From Desulfobacterales bacterium GWB2_56_26 (lineage in GTDB: Bacteria > Desulfobacterota > Desulfobulbia > Desulfobulbales > Desulfocapsaceae): a stretch of 39,274 nucleotides of DNA. Under the pieces are notes generated by a model, which saw only the letters and a list, made by a program, of their open reading frames with translations, made no database searches and was not told the origin of the DNA. Made by a program: the position numbers and the translations under genes. Position 1 is the first letter of the stretch, and each line of letters starts with the position of its first letter. Location: assembly GCA_001799365.1 (NCBI GenBank), contig MGTI01000074.1, forward strand, positions 1 through 39,274, written 5' to 3'. Shown piece by piece: positions 9,940 through 12,939 of the stretch.

Positions 9940-11364
9940 TCATTGAAATGTGCCGGCATTGAGGAGGAAATGGACGTAGATACTGGCGGCGTAACCGAGG
10001 GCGATTACCGGCGTCCATTTCAGGTGGCCGAAGAAGGTATATTTGCCCCGAGCCTGGCCCATAAGGGCAACGCCTGCGGCTGAACCGATGGACAGCAGGC
10101 TGCCGCCTACTCCTGCGGTGAGGGTCACCAGCAGCCACTGGCCGTGCGACATATCCGGCATCATGGTGAGTACAGCGAACATCACCGGGATGTTGTCGAC
10201 GATGGCGGAGAGCAAACCGATCACGACGTTGGCGGTGGTAGGACCCCAGTCGAGATACATAACCTTCGACACCATGGCCAGATAGCCGATGAAGCCGAGA
10301 CCGCCGACGCAGAGGATGACCCCGTAGAAGAACAGCAGGGTATCCCACTCCGCCCGGGCAACTTTTTTGAAGATATCGAAGGGCTCGACCTGGCCGAGCT
10401 CCTCCCGATTTTCTATGTTGCGCCTCCTCAACTTATGGGACTTATTCAGGTAAAAGCCGTACAGTTTCAAGAGCGACAGACCGGCCATCATGCCCACCAT
10501 GGGCGGCAGATGCAGGAAGTTGTGAAAACTGACGGCGGTGAGGATGGTCCAGAGGAAAAGCCCTATAACAACGAAGGCGCCTCGCTTCAGCTTCAGTTGC
10601 TCGATGTTGGCGTCCGGTTTTTTATTGGATATCGCAAAACTCATGATGGCGGCGGGCACCACCCAGTTGATGACGGAAGGGATGAACAGGGCGAAAAATT
10701 CCTGGAACTGAAGAATGCCCTTCTGCCAGACCATCAACGTGGTGATGTCGCCGAACGGACTGAAGGCGCCGCCGGCGTTGGCGCCCACCACGATGTTGAT
10801 GCAGGAGAGGCAGACGAACTTGGTGTCCTCCTTGCCGATAGCCATGACCACCGCGCACATGAGCAGGGCGGTGGTGAGGTTGTCGGCCACCGGGGAGATG
10901 AAGAAGGCGAGCAGGCCGGTGATCCAGAACAGTTTCTTGTACGAGAAACCGGCGTTGACCAGTTTCACCCGCAGCACCTCGAACACCAGCCGCTCGTCCA
11001 TGGCATTGATGTAGGTCATGGCGACCAGCAGGAAGAGGAACAGTTCGGCGTATTCGAGGATGTTGTGACGAATCGCCTGTTCCGCCGTATGATCGATGCC
11101 GTTGTTCGCATAGATCAGGCCGATCAGCCCCCAGATGATACCGGCGGCCAGCAGAACCGGCTTCGACTTCCGCATATGCGTCACCTCCTCCAGCATGACG
11201 AAGGCATACGCCACGACGAAGACCAGAAGGCCGGCATACCCGACCCAATGAGTCGTCAGGTCCAGGGTTTCATGGCTGCCGCCGGCGACAGCCGCCAGGG
11301 CGGTGCCGGCACCACCACAGATAGCGGCGAGCACGGCGGGAAAAACAAAATTCAACATGCGCAT
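9940..11364 (-). CDS. nhaD: Na+/H+ antiporter NhaD
   Basis: A 474-residue inner-membrane protein of the NhaD (ion transporter superfamily) type. It begins with a likely cleaved or first helix ending ...GTALAAVAGG and has about twelve further helices. Conserved family motifs are visible: PVADNLTTALL and FSPFGDITTLMVW in the first half and AIVDNIPVMFAV in the second, with the buried Asp residues thought to carry ions. NhaD expels Na+ (and Li+) in exchange for protons and is typical of halotolerant, marine or alkaliphilic bacteria. AAGGAG lies six bases before the ATG. The gene is monocistronic and preceded by a long structured leader with three tandem riboswitch-like units. Confidence 0.92.
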   Translation of the reverse strand: MRMLNFVFPAVLAAICGGAGTALAAVAGGSHETLDLTTHWVGYAGLLVFVVAYAFVMLEEVTHMRKSKPVLLAAGIIWGLIGLIYANNGIDHTAEQAIRHNILEYAELFLFLLVAMTYINAMDERLVFEVLRVKLVNAGFSYKKLFWITGLLAFFISPVADNLTTALLMCAVVMAIGKEDTKFVCLSCINIVVGANAGGAFSPFGDITTLMVWQKGILQFQEFFALFIPSVINWVVPAAIMSFAISNKKPDANIEQLKLKRGAFVVIGLFLWTILTAVSFHNFLHLPPMVGMMAGLSLLKLYGFYLNKSHKLRRRNIENREELGQVEPFDIFKKVARAEWDTLLFFYGVILCVGGLGFIGYLAMVSKVMYLDWGPTTANVVIGLLSAIVDNIPVMFAVLTMMPDMSHGQWLLVTLTAGVGGSLLSIGSAAGVALMGQARGKYTFFGHLKWTPVIALGYAASIYVHFLLNAGTFQ

Positions 11365-11395
11365 TTTCGACTCCTTCTCGTCGTTATTGGCCGAT

Positions 11396-11431
11396 TAACC
11401 TGCTATCTGCCGCACGGCAGCCGCCAGTTAA
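11396..11431 (-). promoter_or_regulatory. Hairpin close to the nhaD ribosome-binding site
   Basis: Forward CTGCCG-CA-CGGCAG (11407-11420) forms a perfect stem that can be extended by TTAAC/GTTAA pairs, ending about 32 bases before the nhaD ATG. It may replace the missing terminator of leader unit 3 as a further control point, or simply shape the leader. Confidence 0.35.
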
Positions 11432-11449
11432 CCCTCCCCTTGCATAGAA

Positions 11450-11534
11450 TAGGCCGGAAACCTGAGCATCAGCTCCGGTTGACAGCCCGGTAAACGATAA
11501 ACCTCCCAGAAACCTGTAGTGGTCTCTGGCCCCC
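11450..11534 (-). promoter_or_regulatory. Riboswitch-like leader unit 3 (nearest nhaD)
   Basis: This is the most divergent copy of the repeated element. In transcript order: a hairpin CCAGAGACC / GGTTTCTGG, the conserved GGGAGGTTTATCGTT and ACCGGGC blocks, and an AACCGGAGC-TGAT-GCTCAGGTT hairpin. The TGAT loop and the AGC/GCT closing bases are retained. Unlike units 1 and 2 it is not followed by a U-run, so it either controls translation or has lost its terminator. Base changes preserve pairing in the first hairpin (C-G and G-U exchanges), which argues for a selected RNA structure. Confidence 0.6.
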
Positions 11535-11559
11535 AAACCAGTCTCAATCGGTAAAAATG

Positions 11560-11598
11560 AAAAAAGCCGCAACCAGAGCATCAGCTCCAGTTAGCGGC
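11560..11598 (-). terminator. Intrinsic terminator of leader unit 2
   Basis: Minus strand GCCGCTAACTGGAGC, loop TGAT, GCTCTGGTTGCGGC, then T6. There is one bulged T and the rest pairs, including two G-U pairs. Confidence 0.75.
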
Positions 11599-11646
11599 CC
11601 GGCTAACGAAAAACCCTCCAGAAGCTGTAACAGCTTCCGGACCCAT
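11560..11646 (-). promoter_or_regulatory. Riboswitch-like leader unit 2
   Basis: Transcript order: GGGTCC, hairpin CCGGAAGCTG-TTA-CAGCTTCTGG, GGAGGGTTTTTCGTTAGC, CCGGGCC, then a long terminator hairpin with a TGAT loop and T6. GTTAGC and GCTAAC either pair with each other (antiterminator) or the second is used in the terminator stem, so the two folds exclude one another. Nearly identical to unit 1 up to the terminator's 3' arm, which has diverged while keeping base pairs (U-G and G-U). Confidence 0.7.
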
Positions 11647-11671
11647 AAACCAATCTGTGTTTCGTGCGCAT

Positions 11672-11712
11672 AAAAAAAGCCGCTAACTGAAGCATCAGCT
11701 CCAGTTAGCGGC
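11672..11712 (-). terminator. Intrinsic terminator of leader unit 1
   Basis: Minus strand 15-base-pair stem (GCCGCTAACTGGAGC / GCTTCAGTTAGCGGC, one G-U pair), TGAT loop, T7. It lies about 310 bases before the nhaD start, so transcription must read through it for nhaD to be made. Confidence 0.88.
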
Positions 11713-11759
11713 CCGGCTAACGAAAAACCTCCAGAAGCTGTAACAGCTTCTGGACCCAT
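11672..11759 (-). promoter_or_regulatory. Riboswitch-like leader unit 1 (promoter-proximal)
   Basis: Transcript order: GGGTCC, perfect 10-base-pair hairpin CCAGAAGCTG-TTA-CAGCTTCTGG, GGAGGTTTTTCGTTAGC, CCGGGCC, then the terminator hairpin. GTTAGC-CGGGCC-GCTAAC (forward 11704-11721) is an alternative helix that shares GCTAAC with the terminator stem, the classic switch layout. GGTCC can also pair with GGGCC to close an aptamer-like domain. The downstream gene exports Na+/Li+, so a Na+- or Li+-sensing riboswitch is the natural candidate. I cannot assign a known class by eye. A TTGACT hexamer at forward 11801-11806 may be the promoter -35, but no good -10 is seen. Confidence 0.7.
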
Positions 11760-11958
11760 GCAATATTATTGATGTGGTAATTAATATGGAATGATGGAAG
11801 AGTCAAGCTCTTTTGGAGCGATTGGTCTTGAAATGGGCAATGGTCATACCTTGTATCGCAGAACATTCGAAATCAAGCCAGAAGAAGGAGTGAGTGTAGG
11901 ATGCTTCGAACGCAACTGCACAATCGGCCAACTGGGAGTCATGCGGCAGAAGAGCATA

Positions 11959-12939
11959 CTACTCTTCCGCTTTCGCAAGAACACTCGCCAACTGCCGTTT
12001 TGCCTGATCCATATTTTTCTGCGCTGCGGTATAATATTTGGGATTGAGGGCTATGGCCTTATCAAAGGCTTCGATAGCTTTCTCGAATTTTTTGGCAAAA
12101 AGATATTCCTGCCCCATGTTGTTGTAGGCGGCCGCCTCGTTGTCCGAGCCTTTTTTAAAGTATTCAAGTGCGATATCGTAGTGGCCCAACTGGAAGTGGG
12201 CAAGCGCGAGATTGTTGTAGATCTTGCGGTCCTTGGTCCTTGCCGCCAGATTCTCCAAGAGGCGAGTCGCCTCGGCGAAATCGCCGTTCAGGTAGCAGGT
12301 CACTGCCAGATTATTGGTGATGCTTAGATCCCTGGGTTTATACGCAAGGGCGGTCTTGAACTGGGCGATGGCCTCATCGTATTCCTGTTTCTGACTATGG
12401 ATGAGACCGAGATATTCATGGGCCTGCCAGTCATCTTCTTTTTTTGCGAGCGCGGCCAGAAAGCCTTGTTCCGCTTCCTCGAATCTGCCCTGGCCAAAGT
12501 AGGCCATGCTATGACCGGCAAGAGTCTGCGGATCGTCGCCGGCAAGCGGCGTAAGCCTGCCATAGACCAGTTCCGCTTCAGCATACTTTTTCTTTCTGAT
12601 CAACAGTCGCCCCTGTTTCTGGAGGAGAGAGATCCTGTTGGGCTCCACGTTCAATCCCTTGAGATAGTAGAGGTAGGCTCTGTTGATGTCGCCTTTTCGA
12701 AAATAGGTGTCGCCCATCTGTTCGAGTTCCGGCACCGTTTTCTTTTCCGAGATTACCGGCTCGGTGGTCAGTTCATGCCGAACCTGCTGAAGCTCGATCT
12801 GCTTTTCCAGCGTTTTGGCGGTATTGTCGTTCACGGAGGAACAGCCGCCGAAAAGGAGTGATGCAGCAAGGATGACAAAAAGGATATTGCGTCCCGAAAA
12901 TAAACGTATAGCCTCGAAAACGTGCGGTTTTATATTCAT
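11959..12939 (-). CDS. TPR lipoprotein of the Tad locus (TadD-like)
   Basis: A 326-residue protein with a signal sequence and lipobox (LLFGGC; Cys at about residue 33), so it is a predicted lipoprotein. After a short linker there are about six tetratricopeptide repeats from residue 70 on (for example AYLYYLKGLNVEPN, YDEAIAQFKTALAYKPRD, FEKAIEAFDKAIALNPK). TadD lipoproteins act in assembly or localisation of the secretin in Tad systems. Its ATG overlaps the stop of the preceding TPR gene (TAATG). It is the last gene of the locus. TPR proteins are hard to name precisely, so the tadD label is by context. Confidence 0.78.
   Translation of the reverse strand: MNIKPHVFEAIRLFSGRNILFVILAASLLFGGCSSVNDNTAKTLEKQIELQQVRHELTTEPVISEKKTVPELEQMGDTYFRKGDINRAYLYYLKGLNVEPNRISLLQKQGRLLIRKKKYAEAELVYGRLTPLAGDDPQTLAGHSMAYFGQGRFEEAEQGFLAALAKKEDDWQAHEYLGLIHSQKQEYDEAIAQFKTALAYKPRDLSITNNLAVTCYLNGDFAEATRLLENLAARTKDRKIYNNLALAHFQLGHYDIALEYFKKGSDNEAAAYNNMGQEYLFAKKFEKAIEAFDKAIALNPKYYTAAQKNMDQAKRQLASVLAKAEE

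Follow-up and report, generated by a model that had tools for sequence, protein, structure and literature searches.

Tandem nhaA-I riboswitches with intrinsic terminators in the leader of an nhaD Na+/H+ antiporter gene

The nhaD gene in the window (the whole 39,274-nucleotide stretch of Desulfobacterales bacterium GWB2_56_26 analysed here) is preceded on its 5' side by three head-to-tail copies of one RNA element, all on the minus strand. Units 1 and 2 are nhaA-I riboswitches, each sharing one arm of its aptamer with an intrinsic terminator, and unit 3 is a diverged copy. We read the leader as a pseudo-cooperative ON array, most likely for Na+ (Na+-II-like) and with Li+ as the second candidate, in which unit 3 is worn; we put the probability of this reading at about 0.65.

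A TPR-repeat protein gene (11959–12939) flanks the array on one side and nhaD (9940–11364, minus strand), encoding a 474-residue protein, on the other. The initial annotation had called this gene a Na+/H+ antiporter, and NF038006 agrees (636.5 bits, cut-off 80); the TIGR00775 score of 453.5 bits lies under that model's cut-off of 577.1. A likely ribosome-binding site, AAGGAG, is read from the sequence at 11371–11376 (minus strand). Unit 1 consists of an aptamer (11703–11757) overlapping a terminator (11672–11714) and unit 2 likewise of an aptamer (11589–11644) and a terminator (11560–11600), while in unit 3 a diverged aptamer copy (11477–11533) runs into a hairpin (11451–11488; all minus strand). 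The three copies described in the initial annotation are present, and so is the TGAT loop it had seen in each of them. Units 1 and 2 are identical in 82 of 89 alignment columns, units 1 and 3 in 63 of 91 and units 2 and 3 in 61 of 89; the alignment scores (72, 29 and 29, respectively) exceed the maxima of 500 dinucleotide shuffles each (11, 3 and 10). Against 200 shuffles, the whole units fold with z-scores of −8.39 (unit 1), −4.97 (unit 2) and −3.17 (unit 3).

RF03057 (nhaA-I, the Li+-I/Na+-II riboswitch family) matches unit 1 with 48.9 bits and unit 2 with 45.0 bits against a cut-off of 37, and these are the only matches at Rfam cut-offs within the window. They are also the only two RF03057 matches reported for the genome, which is 89% complete and for which the scoring covered 150 of 1052 first-look candidates. 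Helices P1 and P2 and the conserved GGGU, AGG and CGGGCC elements are all present in both units. Units 1 and 2 are thus members of the nhaA-I family, which rules out the new class entertained in the initial annotation; its guess of an alkali-ion sensor was correct in kind for these two units, given the RF03057 matches, the covariation and the terminators described below, and does not extend to unit 3, which is unmatched. The DUF1646/Na+-I and nhaA-II/Li+-II models it had named were not among the matches in two Rfam searches of the window. Weak Rfam matches to hammerhead, sRNA and microRNA families between 11300 and 11900, far under their cut-offs, were taken as chance.

A covariance model, R1, was built from 39 of 62 distinct nhaA-I aptamers of relatives, with the window's own units left out. 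P1 and P2 covary among these relatives: of the cells that the two helices cover in the 39-aptamer alignment, 96.0% are paired (shuffles, 86.1%); 83 cells differ on both sides, where shuffles give 22.7, and sliding the structure by 1–3 columns lowers pairing to 37.6–56.9%. A model-fitted alignment of 70 matches, a kind of alignment that leans towards the structure, is paired in 95.6% of cells against 84.3% in shuffles. R1 scores units 1, 2 and 3 of the window at 55.9, 53.7 and 16.1 bits, and an unfiltered R1 scan of the window found no fourth copy downstream of unit 3 at E-values up to 5.

The terminator hairpins of units 1 and 2 have folding energies of −30.7 and −24.9 kcal/mol (the latter with a one-base bulge), are followed by U7 and U6 and both appear in a consensus terminator scan, as expected from the T7 and T6 runs noted initially. 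The GUUAGC/GCUAAC pairing, first taken for a competing antiterminator, is real and is helix P2 of the aptamer. In both units the 3' arm of P2 (GCUAAC and the preceding GGGCC) also lies in the 5' arm of the terminator. Because this arm is common to both, aptamer and terminator are mutually exclusive, and ion binding should therefore switch nhaD ON. Units 1 and 2 both have the terminator state as their minimum-energy fold, so that switching would be co-transcriptional. We infer a promoter from which transcription would enter upstream of 11757; a search of the minus strand from 11340 to 11960 found no sigma-70-like promoter, which counts against this picture. With the ion absent, the terminators at units 1 and 2 would form; with the ion bound, P2 would be held together, its 3' arm kept from the terminator stem, and the polymerase would pass. 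A full nhaD mRNA would then require two read-through events in series, and hence the response should be sharper. A natural triple of c-di-GMP-I riboswitches in Bacillus thuringiensis, in which three copies of a single class act in series and which differs from the present array in class and ligand, gives such a sharper, more digital output (PMC4759541).

Terminators are common behind the units of this family. The collection used here comprises 67 units (60 from a survey of the phylum, four from the same genus and the three of the window), and a rule for bulge-free terminators finds one behind 53 of them, as against 11 of 1340 shuffled tails; it misses unit 2, with its bulge, unit 3 and 12 others. 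Terminator-linked variants have been described in Deltaproteobacteria (White et al., 2022; PMC9646797). The strength of the hairpins, predicted to win at equilibrium, would also suit repeated terminators or relics that merely insulate nhaD and respond to no ligand, but termination has no need of conserved unpaired GGGU, AGG and CGGGCC elements or of covarying P1 and P2 helices, and we regard this explanation as very improbable.

Unit 3 has no RF03057 match at E-values up to 10 and is ruled out as a full Rfam member. It carries a U–C mismatch in P2, GGGG for GGGU and CGGGCU for CGGGCC, and its hairpin (−21.0 kcal/mol), which keeps the TGAT loop, lacks the U-tract and is absent from the terminator scan. 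The consensus fold of the three copies, in the terminator state, has 30 pairs, of which two are changed on both sides and still paired and five are broken in one copy, by the alignment always unit 3 (columns 9–34, 18–24, 39–47, 57–82 and 63–76); the earlier statement that base changes keep the pairing is true of the former and fails for the latter. In the same way, the 'triple' array amounts to two complete switches and a third, diverged copy without a terminator U-tract. Weak R1 matches of 14.7–19.9 bits occur across the genomes of the genus, one of them (19.4 bits) in the source genome itself, and for this reason the 16.1 bits of unit 3 prove nothing alone; its homology to units 1 and 2 is judged from its place and its alignment to them (63/91 and 61/89 columns, above shuffles). 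Most likely, unit 3 is worn, has ceased to terminate and would be inert. Translational control through it was considered and rejected: the fold of 11350–11480 does not stand out from shuffles (z = −0.98) and shows no base-pairing between unit 3 and the ribosome-binding site.

A same-genus genome, G007, offers a comparison. Its leader (L176:687–1099, contig G007:C1) has two duplicated modules, in each of which a diverged unit comes after a canonical nhaA-I unit, before an nhaD-type gene (NF038006, 149.7 bits, cut-off 80; TIGR00775, 398.7 bits, under the cut-off) whose protein is ~34% identical to the NhaD of the window. The diverged G007 units have lost GGGU and have a changed loop G, and they keep strong U-tract terminators. 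Unit 3 might on this analogy be a third, retuned sensor in a two-input or graded gate: its P1 is intact, with bases changed yet paired, and in G007 the diverged units alternate with canonical ones and still terminate strongly. Against this, unit 3 lacks the U-tract, one P2 pair, GGGU and the final base of the loop, and its score falls among the weak genus matches; the response to Li+ becomes weaker when two of the conserved loop Gs are mutated (PMC9646797), and a loop G is changed in the diverged G007 units too. We consider a retuned unit 3 unlikely, and equally doubtful the related idea that unit 3 and the diverged G007 units are a retained sister type of aptamer with another ligand or set-point, such leaders then being two-input gates.

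In two further genomes of the genus, G001 and G010, single nhaA-I units (L177:697–753 and L178:2413–2468), with U before the loop, precede nhaB (NF007093, 828.5 and 829.1 bits, cut-off 640). This differs from the statement in the accessible text of White et al. (PMC9646797) that nhaA-I RNAs are never associated with nhaB. The element was absent from 29 nhaD orthologue loci besides that of the window (matches at E-values up to 1 of 14.0 and 10.6 bits) and from 40 further stretches upstream of nhaD-type genes (one match, 7.8 bits). These 69 other regions, a subset of the nhaD-relative matches of which a few end at contig ends, weigh against the preferred reading and suggest that the array is a local trait of this lineage.

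The case for Na+ turns on one base. According to PMC9646797, the base numbered 54 is U in most nhaA-I RNAs and C in the Na+-responsive variant; a Desulfobulbus propionicus member with C54 shows Na+-triggered read-through, and with the C54U change the response widens to Li+, Na+ and NH4+. In a 73-nt construct of the same study the mutated loop Gs have the numbers 56 and 57, and base 54 of the 71-nt construct therefore most likely lies just before CGGGCC. At this position all three window units have C, most likely the Na+-linked base, the column being deduced from construct numbering and not from the D. propionicus sequence. Outside the window the base is C in 10 of the 64 collected units and in one of a further 32 matches (four of which repeat counted units); G007, G001 and G010 have U. 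Outside the window, 45 of the 54 U-type units and all 10 C-type units have a T5 run no more than 60 nt from the aptamer, and because U-type relatives also have terminators, a terminator is no mark of the Na+ type. An order-wide pattern search for the D. propionicus RNA gave matches, mostly chance-like, in at least 111 of 249 genomes, and R1 run on 40 genomes from one family of that order gave three weak matches (21.8 to 25.1 bits); neither search picked out the RNA itself.

The physiological ligand of the same array could instead be Li+, or both Li+ and Na+ with little discrimination between them. The family at large is Li+-I, the tandem examples of White et al. (PMC9646797) are called Li+-I there, and the same-genus relatives have U; yet the base before the loop is C in each unit of the window, most likely the one linked to Na+, and the gene they precede is a Na+/H+ antiporter. 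We accordingly hold a Li+ ligand to be a real but distinctly weaker possibility and keep Na+ as the preferred one.

Across the phylum, RF03057 was found in 40 of 395 genomes at E-values up to 0.001, the source genome being one of the 40. With a largest allowed gap of 300 nt, the 67 collected units fall into nine arrays and 47 singles; the array of the window alone is C-type, and the other eight are U-type. A clean triple in G187 (L180:3314–3664, contig G187:C14) likewise has three nhaA-I units in a row but differs in having a terminator on each, in being U-type and in preceding a 159-residue protein, with no NCBIfam or Pfam match, instead of nhaD. Family-wide R1 searches were positive in 4 of 9, 11 of 17 and 27 of 39 genomes and added doublets in G658 and G662 (U-type) and in G646. 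RF03057 on 257 genomes of the order gave three positives and missed G010, which was positive in another search; such genome counts are lower bounds, since prefilters lose weak members. In the family with 27 positive genomes the element stands singly or doubly before similar short proteins (L021:1501–2131, L024, L017, L020, L181), one of which, when tested, was a pentapeptide-repeat protein (PF00805, 63.9 bits). In one genus of a family, C-type units precede genes that by eye resemble those of substrate-binding proteins, starting MKKLFIFA... (L016, L032, L035, L157, L165).

Class and arrangement are already known from two reports. White et al. (PMC9646797) describe Li+-I RNAs in tandem as well as one triple preceding nhaD, with a terminator after each aptamer, their ligands being left open in the accessible text, and a survey of tandem riboswitches (PMC9481103) counts six doublets and one triplet of Li+-I. 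A literature search, judged mostly by title, found no further report on nhaA-I arrays. On the accessible parts of these sources, the array is an uncommon arrangement reported once before for such a gene. The published nhaD triple agrees with that of the window in RNA family, number of copies and kind of gene, and differs in its terminator after each aptamer, as unit 3 here has no U-tract; it may be this very locus or a relative of it. The D. propionicus Na+-II RNA (PMC9646797) shares with the window the family, most likely the C before the loop and the terminator platform, a Na+-II trait present in units 1 and 2 and absent in unit 3, but is a single copy before a hypothetical gene. The modestly new point is the base before the loop, most likely of the Na+ type, in a tandem array. 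That this is a first tandem array of Na+-II-type riboswitches is about as likely as not, and more likely than the sister-aptamer reading of unit 3.

The leader makes available the full sequence of an alkali-ion riboswitch tandem before an antiporter gene, a setting for which White et al. (PMC9646797) left the ligand open. Two intact C-type units would constitute a Na+-II-type tandem, and Na+-II stands in the table of classes not found in tandem in the accessible text of PMC9481103. With the U-type copies that precede nhaD-type and nhaB genes in the same genus, one could test directly whether selectivity for Na+ or Li+ in nature is determined by the C/U base. For the organism, the leader probably makes the pump switch on sharply as sodium (or lithium) builds up.
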